A stretch of 64,000 nucleotides of DNA, taken from an uncultured Ferrovum sp. (GTDB taxonomy: Bacteria > Pseudomonadota > Gammaproteobacteria > Burkholderiales > Ferrovaceae). The stretch is taken from positions 1 to 64,000 of the forward strand of contig CAITLJ010000084.1 of the NCBI GenBank assembly GCA_903893215.1, written 5' to 3'. Position 1 is the first letter of the stretch; each line of letters begins with the position of its first letter. The notes under the pieces are model-generated. The model was given only the letters and a program-made list of their open reading frames with translations. It had not been told where the DNA came from and ran no database searches. Below are positions 3,329-63,672 of this stretch, piece after piece. Both the position numbers and the translations under genes were made by a program.

Positions 3329-5206
3329 GTGAAATCTCGTCTGCGTTTTTCCCTGCGCTCGTCCCTGGGCGCGCTTGTCCTGACGGCGCTTTGGCTGCCG
3401 ACCTTGCCTGCGGTTGCGGCCCCGGGTGCACGCCCGCTCGACATGGGTCCCAGTGCGCCGGGCATCGTACAGTCGGTATCCATCTATCTGAAGGTGCGCA
3501 ACCAGGCACAGCTTGATCAGCTGATTTCAGCAACGGTGAACCCGGCGAGTCCGCGATACCATCAATTCCTCACCGTGGCAGACTTCGCTGAAAATTTTGG
3601 CCCCACCCAGCAGGACCTCGAGACTGTGCTGGATTCCCTTACGGATGCCGGCATCGTGATCAACGAAGTCTACGCAGACCATCTGGTGATCCGTGCCAGC
3701 GGCACCCTCGCCCAGTTCAATGCGGCATTCAACACCAGCATCCATGACTTCAAGGATTCCGACGGCAAGGCGTTCCGCCAGCCGGTAAAAGCGCCTGAAC
3801 TGCCAGTCACGTTGCAATCGTTGATCCTGACTGTCGCGGGACTCAACACCAACCCGCCTCAGGTTTTGTCGCATCGGCACAGTCTCCGCGATGTGCCGGC
3901 CGGCCACGGCGTCCTCACGCCAGGAATCAAGCTGCCGGCCTCCGGATCCACGGCAAGTGGCGTGGCTGGCCTGTACACCGTGGGCGACGTTGCCAACTTT
4001 TATGGTGTGAATCCGCTCTACAAGCGGGGCGTACTGGGGCAAGGTCACAAGCTGGGCATTGCCACGCTGGCGAGCTTCCTGCCCGGTGATGCCGAGTTCT
4101 ACTGGAAATCGATCGGCCTGGAGGTCAAACCGAACCGGATCACCCAGGTGCATGTGGATGGCGGCGGCCTGATCTCCGCGGCGGCTGGCTCGGGCGAGAC
4201 CGCACTCGATGTCGAGCAGTCCGGCGGCATGGCGCCACAGGCCGATATCGTGGTGTATGACGCACCCAACACAGACTTCGGCTTTCTGGACATGTTTTAC
4301 AAGGCTGTGTCGGACAACCTGGTGGATACGCTGTCGGTCTCCTGGGGCTCACCGGAATTGGCATATCTGCCCTCGACGGGCAGCGCCGACCTCACACCGC
4401 AGCTGATCGCCTTCCATCAGGCCTTTGCCGAAGCGGCCGTGCAGGGCATCTCACTGTTCGCTGCCGCCGGGGATTCCGGTGCTTACGACACCGAACGCGG
4501 TGCACCCGCCCCGCAGTACACCACGCCGCTTTCAGTCGACTCTCCGGCCAGCGACCCCTATATGGTGGCGGCAGGTGGCACCACGCTGCCCGTCTCCATC
4601 TCGTTCACTGGGGTCACCAACCCTGTCGTCATCAACACCGAGCAGGTCTGGGGTTGGGATTACCTGTCCCCGCTGTTCGGCTCGGATGCCGTGTTCTCGG
4701 TCGGCGGTGGTGGCGGGGTCAGCATCGTCTGGCCGACGCCGGCTTACCAGGCGAATGTTGCGGGCGTGCTGACCAGCGCCGCCCAGCAGAGCTGGTCGTG
4801 GTACCCGAATTTTCCAGACCTGACCGGTGGCCTGCAACTGCTTTACAACCTGCCGGCCGGATTCGCCGGCCGCAATGTTCCGGACATCTCGCTCAATGCC
4901 GATCCGTTTTCTGGGTACCTGCTTTACTCCACCCCCGATGGCGGTTTCAGCATGGGCAACGGCGGCACCAGTTTTGTTGCCCCCCAGCTGAACGGGATCA
5001 CGACCTTGCTGGTCCAGGCCACCGGCTCTCGGCTCGGCCTGCTGCAACCGGCCTTGTACGCGGCCCAGACGAAACGTGGTGCCATCCGGGATATCGTGGC
5101 TGGCGACAATTGGGGCTACGCCGGTGTGCCGGGATATGAGCCAGCCGCCGGCCTTGGCGTGCTGAACGTGGCCAAGCTGCTGCAAAGCCTGCAAAAGGCC
5201 AATTGA
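3329..5206 (+). CDS. Secreted S53-family (sedolisin/kumamolisin-like) serine-carboxyl peptidase
   Basis: A 625-aa precursor. Residues 1-30 form a signal peptide (basic start, LALVLTALW-type core, cleavage near AVA-APG). Residues about 45-175 match the Pro-kumamolisin activation domain (YHQFLTVADFAENFGPT, VYADHLVIRASGT). The catalytic domain carries Glu290 and Asp294 in GETALDVEQ, Asp382 in AAAGDSGAYD, and the nucleophile Ser548 in GNGGTSFVAP. The C-terminal calcium site region is RDIVAGDNWGY...GYEPAAGLG. Sedolisins are acid-active endopeptidases exported as zymogens, so the enzyme is predicted periplasmic or extracellular. The start is GTG with AAGGAG 9 nt upstream. It is a single-gene unit; the substrate is unknown. 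Confidence 0.9.
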   Translation: MKSRLRFSLRSSLGALVLTALWLPTLPAVAAPGARPLDMGPSAPGIVQSVSIYLKVRNQAQLDQLISATVNPASPRYHQFLTVADFAENFGPTQQDLETVLDSLTDAGIVINEVYADHLVIRASGTLAQFNAAFNTSIHDFKDSDGKAFRQPVKAPELPVTLQSLILTVAGLNTNPPQVLSHRHSLRDVPAGHGVLTPGIKLPASGSTASGVAGLYTVGDVANFYGVNPLYKRGVLGQGHKLGIATLASFLPGDAEFYWKSIGLEVKPNRITQVHVDGGGLISAAAGSGETALDVEQSGGMAPQADIVVYDAPNTDFGFLDMFYKAVSDNLVDTLSVSWGSPELAYLPSTGSADLTPQLIAFHQAFAEAAVQGISLFAAAGDSGAYDTERGAPAPQYTTPLSVDSPASDPYMVAAGGTTLPVSISFTGVTNPVVINTEQVWGWDYLSPLFGSDAVFSVGGGGGVSIVWPTPAYQANVAGVLTSAAQQSWSWYPNFPDLTGGLQLLYNLPAGFAGRNVPDISLNADPFSGYLLYSTPDGGFSMGNGGTSFVAPQLNGITTLLVQATGSRLGLLQPALYAAQTKRGAIRDIVAGDNWGYAGVPGYEPAAGLGVLNVAKLLQSLQKAN

Positions 5207-5233
5207 CGGCACACCCTTGCCCCTGAGGCAGAC

Positions 5234-5269
5234 GCAGGATCGCCCGGTATTTGCGCCGGGCGATCCTGC
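5234..5269. terminator. Perfect 14-bp stem hairpin downstream of the protease gene
   Basis: GCAGGATCGCCCGG pairs perfectly with its complement across an 8-nt loop (5248-5255). It starts 27 nt after the protease stop. A U-tract is lacking (CGCAAAACG follows), so it is not a classical intrinsic terminator, but it could stabilise the 3' end or assist termination. Confidence 0.5.
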
Positions 5270-5350
5270 GCAAAACGACGCTGGTCTTCGACGCGGTCCG
5301 GTGCGTTTGCAGCCAGTAGCATCCACTCCAGATCTCGCTGGAGTTGCCCG

Positions 5351-6025
5351 ATGAACCTGCTCGACCTGCCGCTGGCCGACCGCCCACGCGAAAAGCTGCT
5401 TCGCCTGGGTGCCGAGGCCCTATCTGATAGTGAGTTGCTGGCGCTGGTACTGCGCACCGGTACCGGTCAGCACAATGCACTCGAAACAGGAAGGGCACTG
5501 CTGCAGCGCTTCCGCTCGCTCGGCGCCCTGTTTGCCGCACTACCCGATCAGGTATGCGCCGAACCGGGTCTGGGTCCGGCCCGTTACGCCAGCCTGCGCG
5601 CCGGCTTCGAACTGGCGCGGCGCACCCTGCGCGAGCAGGCCGAGACACGGGATGCCCTGCGCTCACCGCAGGCGGTGCGTGATTTCCTGCGCATGACCCT
5701 GCACCAACGCCCGATCGAAGTATTCATGGGCGTGTTCCTCGACGCACAGAACCGGGTAATCTGCGCGGAAGAACTGTTCCGCGGCACGCTGACACAAACT
5801 TCGGTGTATCCACGTGAAGTGGTCAAGCGTGCCCTGCACCACAATTGCGCTGCCATGATCCTGGCGCACAATCATCCGTCCGGCTTGGCCGAGCCCAGCG
5901 AAGCGGACCGGATGCTGACCTCCGCGCTCAAGGCTTCGCTGGCGCTGGTCGACATCCGGGTGCTCGATCACTTCGTGGTGGGTCACGGCGACGCCACCTC
6001 ATTTGCCGAACGCGGTCTGCTGTGA
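5351..6025 (+). CDS. radC: RadC-family JAB/MPN-domain protein
   Basis: A 224-aa full-length RadC. An N-terminal helix-hairpin-helix-like region (about 1-100) is followed by the MPN(+)/JAB1 metalloprotein domain with the metal motif HNHPSGLAEPSEAD (about residues 173-186) and an upstream Glu. Once linked to DNA repair, the biochemical role of RadC is unresolved. The gene is encoded divergently from coaBC and upstream of rpmB-rpmG, a common proteobacterial neighbourhood. The ATG at 5351 gives the normal length. Confidence 0.93.
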   Translation: MNLLDLPLADRPREKLLRLGAEALSDSELLALVLRTGTGQHNALETGRALLQRFRSLGALFAALPDQVCAEPGLGPARYASLRAGFELARRTLREQAETRDALRSPQAVRDFLRMTLHQRPIEVFMGVFLDAQNRVICAEELFRGTLTQTSVYPREVVKRALHHNCAAMILAHNHPSGLAEPSEADRMLTSALKASLALVDIRVLDHFVVGHGDATSFAERGLL

Positions 6026-58847: not shown

Positions 58848-59335
58848 TCGGTGTCCCGCAACGCAGCCACCAGCCGCGCCATTTCTACCGCAGCCTGGGC
58901 GCAATCGCGCCCCTTGTCGAAAGTACGCGCAAAGGTCTGCTCGTCGTCTTCGGTGGTCAGCACGCCGTTGGCCACCGGAATTTCCAGGTCGAGCTGCACC
59001 TGGGTGATGCCGGAGCCCGTCTCGTTGGACACCAGCTCGAAGTGATAGGTCTCGCCGCGGATCACTGCACCCAGCGCGATCATGGCGTCCGGCTCATGCG
59101 CCGTGCCGAGCACTTGCAGGGCCAGCGCAATCTCCAGTGCCCCGGGCACCCGGACCACGGTGATGTCGTCATCGGCCACACCAAGCCGCAGCAGCTCGTC
59201 GGTGCAGGCCTCAAGCAGTTCATCACAAGCCTGCGCATTGAAACGGGCACACACGATGCCAATCTGCAGGCCTTCGCCGGCTGGAACACCGGCCGTGTTG
59301 TCGGCAGCTTCGAGACCGATTTCCAGTATGTTCAT
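58844..59335 (-). CDS. ribH: 6,7-dimethyl-8-ribityllumazine synthase
   Basis: A 163-aa lumazine synthase, penultimate step of riboflavin synthesis. Motifs: [53 protein letters not shown] and [21 protein letters not shown] at 59335 overlaps the ribBA stop (ATGA). Confidence 0.96.
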
Positions 59336-60477
59336 GTCGGGTTTCCTCTGACTTCTTCGGGACTTAAAAATCCTGTGACTTCCAGGCCAAAACCCATGAA
59401 ACGCGTCAGGCGCGCCGGCTTGGCCAGGATGCGCATGCGGCCCACGCCAAGATCGCGCAGGATCTGCGCGCCAACGCCGTGGGCACGCGGGTCCCATTTA
59501 CGACGCGCAAGCGCCACCAACTGACGTTCACGGGTCAGATCAGTAAAGTCGCCATCGGCGGCTTCACCCTGCAGCAGGACCAGCACACCCGCGCCCCGCC
59601 CGGCGATCACGCGCAGGGCCTCGTGGACACCGAAGGCATGACGCCCGACACCGTCGTCGATCAGGTCGGCGAGCGAGGCCGGTTCGTGCACCCGCACCAG
59701 GGTTTCCTGATCCGCTTGCGGAACACCCAGCACCAGCGCCACATGGGTGCGCTCGGCCACGGCATCAAAGTACTCGACCACCCGAAAACGCCCTTCGGCC
59801 AGCGCGATTTCGCGCTCGGCACAACGCCGCACCAGACTCTCGGTTTCGCTGCGGTAGCGGATCAGATCGGCGATGGTACCCACTTTCAGGTGATGGATCT
59901 GCGCGTATTCGAGCAGGTCGGGCAGACGGGCCATTTCGCCGTCTTCCTTGAGGATTTCGCAAATCACGGCGGCCGGTTCGCAGCCCGCCAGCTGGGCCAG
60001 GTCGCACCCGGCTTCGGTGTGACCAGCCCGCATCAGCACGCCACCTGGGCGCGCCATCAGCGGAAAGATGTGCCCGGGCTGCACGATGTCTTCGGGCGTG
60101 GCGTGCGCCGCAACGGCCGCCTGCACCGTGCGTGCGCGATCAGCGGCCGAAATGCCGGTGGTGACCCCGGTGGCGGCTTCAATCGACACGGTGAAATTGG
60201 TGGCATACGGCGAACGGTTGTCGCTGACCATCAAGGGCAGGCGCAACTGCGCGCAACGCTGCTCGGTCAGGGTCAGGCAAATCAGGCCGCGCCCGTGGCG
60301 CGCCATGAAATTGATGGCTTCCGGGGTGACATGCTGGGCAGCCAACACCAGATCGCCTTCGTTTTCGCGATCTTCGTCATCCACCAGCACCACCATGCGA
60401 CCGGCGCGGATTTCTTCAATGATGCCGGCAGCAGGCGTGATGCCCGGCAGGCTGGAAGGGAATGAGGGGGTGGTCAT
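59332..60477 (-). CDS. ribBA: 3,4-dihydroxy-2-butanone-4-phosphate synthase with degenerate GTP cyclohydrolase II-like domain
   Basis: About 381 aa. The N-terminal 200 residues are an intact Rib[21 protein letters not shown] with the acidic metal loop, [33 protein letters not shown] and [16 protein letters not shown]. The C-terminal half aligns with RibA but lacks the CDC zinc-cysteine cluster (the region reads [20 protein letters not shown]), so GTP cyclohydrolase activity is not expected. Such RibBX forms are common in betaproteobacteria. ATG at 60477 is preferred; 60519 is possible. I saw no FMN riboswitch upstream. Confidence 0.92.
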
Positions 60478-60692
60478 CAGGGGGAACACGGTAGCGCCTG
60501 GAGTCAGGCCACCCTCCATTATCGCGCAAAAGGGCCGGGCCGTCCAAACCCGGACCAGGCATCGCCGCGAGGATGGCGGAATTCATCTGGATGCGTCGAA
60601 AACGCACATGAGAAATTTAAAAACATTAAATAATTAATAACTAAAGATTCCTCGCAGGCATCCGTTAATCAGGCATCACCCGAGGTCCACAT
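60478..60692. other. Divergent promoter region between ribBA and the chemoreceptor mini-ORF
   Basis: A 215-nt gap. Positions 60605-60655 are markedly AT-rich (AATTTAAAAACATTAAATAA), unlike the GC-rich surroundings, and probably contain the promoter of the plus-strand genes. On the minus strand CGATAAT near 60520 could be a ribBA -10. No conserved FMN riboswitch core was found. Confidence 0.45.
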
Positions 60693-60947
60693 ATGAATTC
60701 CCTCTTCGCTCCTGCTGTGGATCTGACGTTGCATTTGCGCTTCCCGGCCAATTTCGCGACGAATGACAAGCTTTTTACCGGTGTGCTCGGTTTTCTGGCC
60801 GGGCATGCCGTGCCTGCACTTGCCCGTGTGCATTTCGTAAAACCCGAAAAGTCTGATGCCAGCCAGGCACAGATCAATACGGTGATCCATGCACGCAATC
60901 TGGGTCCTGCAGGAATATGTCTGAACCAAGCGGGGACCTCCAAATGA
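60693..60947 (+). CDS. Mini-ORF repeating the chemoreceptor N-terminus
   Basis: An 84-aa open frame. Its first 37 residues align without gaps to the N-terminus of the chemoreceptor that follows (17 of 37 identical by my count, sharing LF-PA--L---LRF-A-FA and VLG-L). The rest has no similarity I recognise. It may be a truncated duplicate of a chemoreceptor gene, or a translated leader peptide. Its TGA overlaps the receptor ATG (ATGA), so if translated it would be coupled to it. GAGG lies about 8 nt before its ATG. Confidence 0.5.
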
Positions 60948-62986
60948 CGATCTTGTTTTTGCCCGCATTGCGCCTGATGGAGCGCTTGCGCTTCTCTGCC
61001 AAGTTTGCGCTGACCGGCGCATTTTTTCTGGTGGTACTGGGCTATCTGGGTTGGTACTCGGTCAACACACTCAACCAGCGGCTGGAAAAAATTGCTGCCG
61101 AGCAGTCCGGCGCCACCCTGGTGGCGGATCTGGTCAGCCTGAATCAGGCCCTGATCGAGTACCGCCGCACGGCCGTCAATGCGCCCACCGGCGATGATAC
61201 GGTCAAGACCCGTCTGCAGGCCCTCTCCAGCGCCAACACCGTGGCACTCGACAAGTTCGAAGAAGACGTGCGCAAGGCGCAAGCCGCCTTCGACATGAGC
61301 GGACGGGCCAGGGAATTGCGCGCCAGCTGGTCGGGCATCGCGGGCACGGTAGACGCGCTGCCGCTGGATACAGCCTTCGGCACCAAGGCGTTCGCCGCAC
61401 ATGCCACGATCTTCGACCTGATCTATGTGACCATGCGCGAAATCGGTGACCGCTCCGGCATGGCGTTGGAACCCGACATGGACCTGTTCTACCTGGGCTT
61501 TCCGATTGCCAACAATGTGCCGCGGATCGCCGGCATGACTGTGCGGGTCTATGCGTACGAGTCCATGAACCTGATGCGCGGCACGCTCACGGCGACCGAC
61601 AGGATTTTTTACGAAGTGACCGAATCGCGCCTGAGAGATGCGATTGGTGCCAGCACCGTCATGCTGGAACAGTCCATGCAGGCCAACCCGGCGGTCAAGG
61701 CCAGGCTGGCGCCGCTACTGGCTGCCCTGCAAACCACCAGCGCCGACCAACTCTCCTTCGCCCGTGAACAGTTCATCAAGTCAGACCAACTGGCCGTCAC
61801 CATGGCGCAGGCGGGCGACCACTCCCGTCAGGCGGTCGAAGCCGCATGGGCGCTGGTGAACGGCACACTGGACGTGTTCCAGGAGCAGCTGACCGCCCGG
61901 GCCGCCGCCGTCACCGCCCAGCGCTGGCTGCTGTTGATCAGCATGCTGGGTTGCTCGTTGGGCAGCATCTATCTGTTCATCGGCATGTACCTGTCGGTGG
62001 CAGCATCGGTAACCAGCCTGAAGGAGGGCAGCGCCCGCCTGGCCAAAGGCGATTTCCGCACGCCCGTGCGCGTCGGTGCACAGGATGAACTGGGCGAGGT
62101 TGCCACCCATTTCAACACCATGATGCGCGCGCTTGGCAACCTGATGATGGGCCTGAAAACCTCGGCAAGCGGTGTGCTGGATGCTGCCAACGGCCTTGCC
62201 AACAGCGCCAGCCAGATCTCGCAAGGCTCGCGCGTGCAGTCCGCCGCGGCACAATCCACGGCCTCTGCCGTGGATGAAGTGTCCGCCAGCGTGCGTGGCG
62301 TGTCCGACAGCGTGGCCGAGACAGTACTGGTGTCGGAGGCCGCTGCGCAGTCCACTTTGCACGGCCGCGAAGTGATCCTTGCCGCCGCCGCCGAAACCCG
62401 CTCGGTGGCCGATCTGGTGGGTAAACTGACCGCCGATGTCACCCGACTGGGCGGCCGCGCCGACGAGATCGGCCTGATCGTCAACACCATCCAGGGGATT
62501 GCAGACCAGACCAATCTGCTGGCCCTCAACGCCGCCATCGAGGCAGCCCGTGCCGGCGAGGCTGGCCGCGGCTTCGCGGTAGTGGCAGACGAAGTACGCA
62601 AGCTGGCAGACAACACACGCCGCGCCACCGAAGCGATTGCCGGCATGATCGGCAAAGTCCAGGGCGATGTGAAGTTGTCAATCGCGCAGGCGGAATCCAG
62701 TCGTATCCGCGTCCTGAAGGGCGTGGAGATGACCGAGTCTGCCGTGCTCAGCCTGGATCACATTCGTGCCGGTTCGGACACCACCATGCAAAGGATTCGC
62801 GAGATCGCCGCAGCATCCCGCGAACAGGCGCAAGCTACCGAGGACATCGCGCGGAACGTGGAACGGATCAGCCAGATGTCCGAAGACAACGATCACGCCA
62901 TCGACGGCGTCAGCGCCGCTGCGCTGCGCCTGAAAGCCCTGGCGGACAGCGTCCAGCAGGGCGTGGCACGGTTCCAGGTGGGCTGA
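60944..62986 (+). CDS. Methyl-accepting chemotaxis protein
   Basis: A 680-aa receptor. TM1 lies at about residues 19-40, a large periplasmic sensor region at 42-325 that I cannot assign to a named domain, and TM2 at about 327-349. HAMP follows ([22 protein letters not shown]...[13 protein letters not shown]), then the cytoplasmic signalling domain. The conserved hairpin tip is [22 protein letters not shown] followed by [18 protein letters not shown]. It controls CheA; ligand unknown. The start at 60944 is preferred because GGGGA lies 7 nt upstream and homology begins there; an in-frame ATG at 60917 also exists. It interrupts the rib gene order on the opposite strand. Confidence 0.92.
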
Positions 62987-63069: not shown

Positions 63070-63672
63070 TCAATCCTGCGAAATCTGGCTGTAACTGAGG
63101 ATGCGCTCGCAATACCGGGCGATCAGGTCGACTTCCAGGTTGACCGGATCGCCCGCCTGGAGATTGCGAAAAGTGGTGACCGAGCGGGTGTGCGGGATGA
63201 TGTTGATGTCGAATACCCGCCCTGCCACATGATTGACGGTCAGGCTGGTGCCGTTCACGGTCACCGAGCCCTTCCGCGCGATATAGCGGGCAATCAGGTC
63301 AGGCGCCTCGATCTCGAGAAACCAGCTCTCGCCGACCGCCTCGAATCGCGTTACCCGACCGACCCCGTCGACGTGGCCGGAAACCAGATGCCCCCCCAGG
63401 CGATCGGCCAGGGTGAGTGATTTTTCCAGATTCACCTCAGCCAGCTGATCCAGACCGACCGTACAGTCGAGCGTCTCGCGCGACACGTCGGCCTCGAACG
63501 CATGCTCGGTCAGGGCCACCGCCGTCAGGCACACCCCGTTGACACAGATGCTGTCGCCAAGCTGGGCGTCAGCCAGCGGCAGACCGGCGGTGTCGATGGT
63601 CAGGCGGACGCCCTGCGGCAGCGGAGCAATCTGGGTAATGCGGCCAACAGCAGCCACGATTCCGGTAAACAT
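63070..63672 (-). CDS. ribE: Riboflavin synthase, alpha chain
   Basis: A 200-aa protein with two lumazine-binding repeats: MFTGIVAAVGRI ... GDSICVNGVCLTAVAL ... and GHLVSGHVDGVGRV ... GSVTVNGTSLTVNHV. It dismutates two lumazines to riboflavin and the pyrimidine precursor. ATG at 63672 starts at the invariant MFTGIV. It is 14 nt after ribD. Confidence 0.96.
   Translation of the reverse strand: MFTGIVAAVGRITQIAPLPQGVRLTIDTAGLPLADAQLGDSICVNGVCLTAVALTEHAFEADVSRETLDCTVGLDQLAEVNLEKSLTLADRLGGHLVSGHVDGVGRVTRFEAVGESWFLEIEAPDLIARYIARKGSVTVNGTSLTVNHVAGRVFDINIIPHTRSVTTFRNLQAGDPVNLEVDLIARYCERILSYSQISQD

Follow-up and report, generated by a model that had tools for sequence, protein, structure and literature searches.

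Pseudogenes and losses among paralogous chemoreceptors have been reported for Pseudomonas, for example for pctA, pctB and pctC (PMC6974571), and in the genus Ferrovum the F. myxofaciens strains carry flagellar and chemotaxis genes that other Ferrovum strains lack, a difference ascribed to gene loss (PMC4886054, PMC7236192). Two further lines of published work bear on how such genes are expressed. The consensus of sigma28 promoters is given as TAAAGTTT-n11-GCCGATAA (PMC2859248), and translational coupling is described both for neighbouring chemotaxis genes of E. coli (PMC2716512) and for gene pairs overlapping by ATGA, 13 of 14 of which were strictly coupled when tested (PMC6728339). Among titles and the opening parts of abstracts, we found no account of the locus described here or of a receptor relic of this kind in these organisms.

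Here we describe a locus of an uncultured Ferrovum species at which a chemoreceptor gene is preceded and overlapped by a short open reading frame (mini-ORF), and we conclude that the mini-ORF is probably an internally deleted relic of the upstream member (A) of an ancestral tandem pair of NIT-like receptors, the surviving member (B) probably now depending on the promoter of A. The window (the whole stretch of DNA analysed) comprises 64,000 nucleotides, and the locus lies within a 122-kb contig of a draft genome of 84 contigs with a completeness of 99.46%. The features of the locus, in window coordinates, are:

59332 to 60519, minus strand: ribBA-like gene, the left synteny flank, with 87% identity to the gene that borders the tandem receptor pair on the left in a sister species
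60642 to 60668, plus strand: match to a sigma28 (FliA)-type promoter, TAAAGATT-N11-TCCGTTAA, 13 of 16 consensus positions, 24 nt before the mini-ORF
60693 to 60947, plus strand: mini-ORF, ATG to TGA, 84 codons (84 aa)
60693 to 60815, plus strand: mini-ORF codons 1-41, probably derived from the N-terminal end of receptor A, first membrane helix included
60816 to 60878, plus strand: mini-ORF codons 42-62, likely remnant of receptor A codons 271-291 (end of the sensor domain)
60879 to 60947, plus strand: mini-ORF tail, codons 63-84 and stop, with no match above shuffles, ending in the common ATGA
60944 to 62986, plus strand: surviving chemoreceptor, 680 aa, with NIT-like sensor domain, HAMP and MCP signal domain
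63070 to 63672, minus strand: ribE-like gene (riboflavin synthase), the right synteny flank, 86% identical to the ribE-like gene of the sister

The left-flank gene is presumably ribBA, a name given from general knowledge of the family. On the strand opposite to it, Rfam matches RF02820 (V_AS9, a Vibrio antisense RNA; 60246-60350, 52.8 bits), which may be a mere mirror of the conserved ribBA coding sequence, and Rfam gave nothing besides this match inside ribBA.

A preliminary description of this DNA had pointed out that the first 37 residues of the mini-ORF and of the receptor align without gaps with 17 identities and that the end of the mini-ORF overlaps the receptor start in an ATGA. Both observations were exactly reproduced, the ATGA common to the mini-ORF stop and the receptor start lying at 60944-60947. 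Shuffling the first 37 receptor residues 20,000 times never gave 17 identities, and the local alignment of mini-ORF and receptor scored 83, compared to a shuffle mean of 24.2 (sd 4.2), with 0 of 1000 shuffles as high. The receptor frame has a further upstream ATG at 60917, and we took 60944 as the start because it agrees with the starts of sister receptor A (see below) and of a receptor of genome G011; sister receptor B starts one residue later. When the 84 residues were used as a query against 61 genomes, matches at E <= 10 were obtained in 12 genomes, and those at a receptor N-terminus with E < 0.01 were limited to the neighbour, both receptors of the sister and one from a related genus; a profile matched mini-ORF residues 1-56 with 31.2 bits. 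Pfam assigns no family to the 84-aa mini-ORF, which is devoid of the second membrane helix, the HAMP domain and the signal domain, and no short frame homologous to it was found in the 61 genomes, the sister having full genes instead.

The surviving receptor itself has Pfam matches to HAMP and MCPsignal, and its sensor domain is all-helical in a predicted model (pLDDT 88). Structure comparison of this model with 918 PDB chains gave as best match NasR (4akk_A; Z 24.1, 270 residues, rmsd 3.8), the next chain reaching Z 14.2, while Foldseek alone yielded no PDB match at E < 0.001. NasR, which has a NIT domain, is an antiterminator that responds to nitrate and nitrite. The Pfam NIT family (PF08376) matches neither the window receptor nor sister receptors A and B, and it does match two of three distant relatives (Aliikangiella and Kangiellaceae). 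Region 60944-62026 thus holds a sensor domain that Pfam misses but whose model fits the NasR NIT domain far better than other folds. As judged from the model, the survivor is a divergent NIT-like receptor; nitrate or nitrite as its ligand would be a guess.

The preliminary description had proposed looking for a full-length receptor at this position in relatives, and the sister genome G001 (uncultured Ferrovum sp. isolate T8-5_bin-086, contig CAIPBT010000073.1, a correspondence that we inferred; same genus by kinship label) indeed has a tandem of two complete receptor genes, A and B, in the interval from ribBA to ribE. On the sister contig (L013) the region contains:

3917 to 5959: sister receptor A, 680 aa
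6088 to 8127: sister receptor B, 679 aa
8208 to 9302, minus strand: extra ORF between B and ribE

Identity of the window receptor is 60% with A and 61% with B. Trees built from full receptors and from sensor domains left the order of A, B and the survivor unsettled, and did not show whether A or B is orthologous to the survivor. In the signalling halves A and B share 210 of 280 residues, compared to 197 and 199 of 280 between them and the window receptor, whereas in the sensor halves A and B share 125 of 280, against 140 and 146 of 280 with the window receptor; gene conversion within the sister pair may be involved in this pattern.

A search with the sensor part detected only one other receptor in the source genome (G000), a distant one (24%), and neither an intact second full copy nor another A-like sensor-domain piece was found elsewhere in this genome (99.46% complete). 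Across 32 genomes of the family the same search gave any match in five, with close ones confined to G000, G001 and G011, the last having a single related receptor at a different locus. In G002, ribBA and ribE are present with no receptor between them and no receptor remnant in the spacer; G003 has two other genes there, and the contig of G004 stops just past ribBA. The two unrelated genes of G003 are, as judged by eye, a metallo-hydrolase-like and a membrane permease-like ORF. The space between ribBA and ribE hence varies among species of the genus (empty in G002, two genes in G003, receptors in G000 and G001) and looks like an insertion-prone interval. Another chemoreceptor match of the source genome (G000:C82:55901-56389) has a TGA stop inside the signal domain, possibly a further receptor pseudogene or a sequencing error.

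The mini-ORF appears to combine pieces from two parts of a receptor. Codons 1-41 have 19 of 41 identities to A and 18 of 41 to the neighbouring receptor, and codons 42-62 align with receptor codons 271-291 (AFAREHFTNAERITVTQADID in A), which in the predicted model cover the last part of a long helix, a loop and the first part of the helix leading into the second membrane segment. When the 63 bases of codons 42-62 were slid without gaps, on both strands, over the sister locus L013, the window and L135 (169,956 offsets), the best match apart from self was codon 271 of A (35 of 63, among about 170,000 offsets), and the homologous codon came first among in-frame offsets in all four receptors (A 35, window receptor 32, sister B 28 and G011 28, the latter two tied). 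The base matches to A amount to 13 of 21 at codon position 1, 14 of 21 at position 2 and 8 of 21 at position 3, and at the receptor invariants R274, F277, T286 and A288 the mini-ORF has R, F, S and A. A profile of the four receptors scored this segment at 2.0 bits (3000 shuffles: 99th percentile 1.1, maximum 5.3), a wider profile of seven at -1.5 bits, which is chance level, and the profile alignment of the mini-ORF can also continue straight to residue 56. Homology of codons 42-62 to receptor codons 271-291 is likely, not certain. The last 65 bases of the mini-ORF matched nothing convincingly on A, on B, in the spacer between them or in the region upstream of A; the best of these placements, on the end of A together with the spacer, was equalled by 42 of 500 shuffles. 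Counted over the 62 residues that can be assigned, A is the closest receptor (28 identities, followed by the window receptor with 24, G011 with 23 and sister B with 21) and the best match in 76% of column bootstraps. Since codons 1-41 are not closest to A in their bases, identifying the relic as A depends chiefly on its position, the spacing of the promoter and the second segment.

The promoter match at 60642 is the sole site with at least 13 of 16 consensus positions within the window and the sole exact match to TAAAGNTT-N12-CCGNTAA in the source genome, and none of 500 shuffles produced one as good. A 13/16 site precedes the start of sister receptor A by 23 nt, and sister receptor B has a weaker site of its own (11/16, 26 nt before the start), whereas the best site before the surviving receptor reaches 9/16, no better than shuffles. 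With this promoter match before the mini-ORF and a chance-level site before the receptor, the promoter of the lost gene seems to have been retained and that of the survivor lost. Between 60500 and 61000 we detected no sigma70-type promoter on the plus strand and no terminator. FliA is encoded in the source genome (G000:C70, 279.6 bits over the cut-off), and six of 11 other receptors of this genome possess a site of at least 11/16 that is reached by at most 4.3% of shuffles (11 of 14 other receptor matches were taken, with the first Met as start). Allowing one mismatch in the motif, the source genome has six sites versus none in a reversed control, and G001 four versus three; the single exact match in G001 lies 33 nt before the FlgM gene. 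Among the five one-mismatch sites of the source genome, one lies about 190 nt before FlhD and four have no evident flagellar gene downstream. The one-mismatch site at G000:C36:29731-29757 precedes a pilin- or GspG-like gene (named by eye). By eye, a Shine-Dalgarno-like GAGG lies 7 nt before the ATG of the mini-ORF and a GGGGA 7 nt before the receptor start; RNA folding of two stretches around both starts was unremarkable (z -1.88 and -0.36).

The preliminary description had called the mini-ORF a partial 5' duplication, possibly a scar left when one member of a tandem receptor pair was lost, or a leader setting receptor expression. A duplication of the 5' part of the surviving gene, kept in frame in a lineage that never had a full second receptor, would agree with the bases of codons 1-41, which match the neighbouring receptor best, if narrowly (69 of 123, compared to 68 for G011 and 66 for A). 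We nevertheless consider it improbable: the mini-ORF and its neighbour agree at 24 of 62 residues, a divergence equal to that between intact paralogues (24 to 32 of 62 in six pairs), the mini-ORF also includes the internal segment from codons 271-291, and at this place in the sister a complete first gene follows its promoter at the same spacing. The term duplication is therefore not upheld, while the scar of a tandem pair fits both the intact sister pair at this locus and the origin of the mini-ORF pieces in two receptor parts. Even less probable is an assembly artefact in which unrelated pieces were joined; the draft state of the genome, with its 84 contigs, might invite such errors, but the locus sits inside a contig of 122 kb, the mini-ORF is too unlike every receptor found to be a collapsed repeat, and no other A-like sensor-domain piece was found in the genome.

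That the mini-ORF could instead be a functional translated leader, or a small membrane protein under selection, that sets receptor amount deserves more attention, as its 84-codon frame is open behind a sigma28-type promoter, begins after the GAGG and ends in an exact ATGA overlap, of a type for which another study found coupling in 13 of 14 pairs tested (PMC6728339). We regard it as rather unlikely, given that no homologous short frame was found in the 61 genomes, that gene loss fully accounts for the origin of the frame, and that its codon use is poor and its membrane-helix hydropathy low. The third-position GC of the mini-ORF is 0.56, compared to 0.80 in the receptor, a value as low being found in 2 of 159 84-codon slices of long window ORFs, and its codon adaptation is 0.52 versus a slice mean of 0.67, with 4.4% of slices as low (training set of 29 ORFs, picked mechanically by length); codon use is poorest in the tail. 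The best 19-residue hydropathy, 1.46, falls below all four receptors (1.72 to 2.06), and of the 11 residues invariant among these receptors in the first 41, eight are kept and R14, K20 and G25 are lost, K20 being invariant in all six sensor domains compared. Because the N-terminus of the mini-ORF is no further from A than that of the living receptor, and because the intact receptors themselves each miss one to five residues common to the other three in a leave-one-out comparison, the decay appears mild or recent. A leader role is possible as a later by-product of gene loss and compatible with it, since the promoter precedes the mini-ORF and the frames overlap.

We thus favour the loss of an upstream tandem receptor. 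The intact sister pair, the two homologous segments and the promoter match that precedes the mini-ORF and is absent before B are observations, whereas the order and number of deletions as well as transcription, translation and coupling are inferred. The common ancestor of the source species and the sister would have had a tandem A-B pair between ribBA and ribE. Deletions would have taken out, in frame, about codons 42-270 of A, and also the whole stretch between about codon 292 of A and a point shortly before B, the promoter of B included, so that the sigma28 promoter and start of A, a truncated frame with its stop overlapping the start of B, and an intact B would remain. Transcription would proceed from the old flagellar promoter of A, starting near 60675, through the relic into the receptor, and B would be translated from its own Shine-Dalgarno-like site, aided by ribosomes ending at the ATGA. 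Such ribosomes could restart on the receptor because coupling is reported for ATGA overlaps and for E. coli chemotaxis genes (PMC6728339, PMC2716512). The mini-ORF is known from a single genome, and no intermediate was seen among the genomes compared.

If A was lost in this way, the mini-ORF is ordinary debris of gene loss, the event is of a known kind, and the promoter was neatly handed over. The case would provide a readable example of a tandem chemoreceptor pair collapsing to one gene in a motile acidophile lineage, with the survivor rescued by the promoter of the dead gene, and it cautions that a short frame joined by ATGA need not be a designed leader or a partial duplication. A bolder and more doubtful proposal gives the relic a present function: through an exchange of promoters brought about by the deletions, the survivor would have become the distal gene of a two-frame operon on the stronger sigma28 promoter of its dead paralogue, and selection would hold the relic open to the ATGA as its translation delivers ribosomes, the dead gene acting as a translated leader to set the dosage of the receptor. 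Should the amount of receptor indeed be controlled by translation of the relic, this would be a concrete case of gene debris turned regulatory element.

The locus resembles pctA, pctB and pctC of Pseudomonas in that one copy of a duplicated receptor gene degenerates or disappears and its paralogue is retained (PMC6974571), and differs from them in that a short open relic and the promoter of the dead gene remain, fused to the survivor by ATGA. As at the sigma28 promoters of E. coli tar, tsr and aer, a TAAAGTTT-n11-GCCGATAA type element stands close before a receptor start (PMC2859248, PMC4183435); unlike there, it precedes the dead first gene, and an 84-codon relic lies between promoter and live receptor. 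The overlap of stop and start is like that of ATGA pairs coupled by termination-reinitiation (PMC6728339), whereas here the upstream frame of the putatively coupled pair is a gene relic rather than a functional partner.
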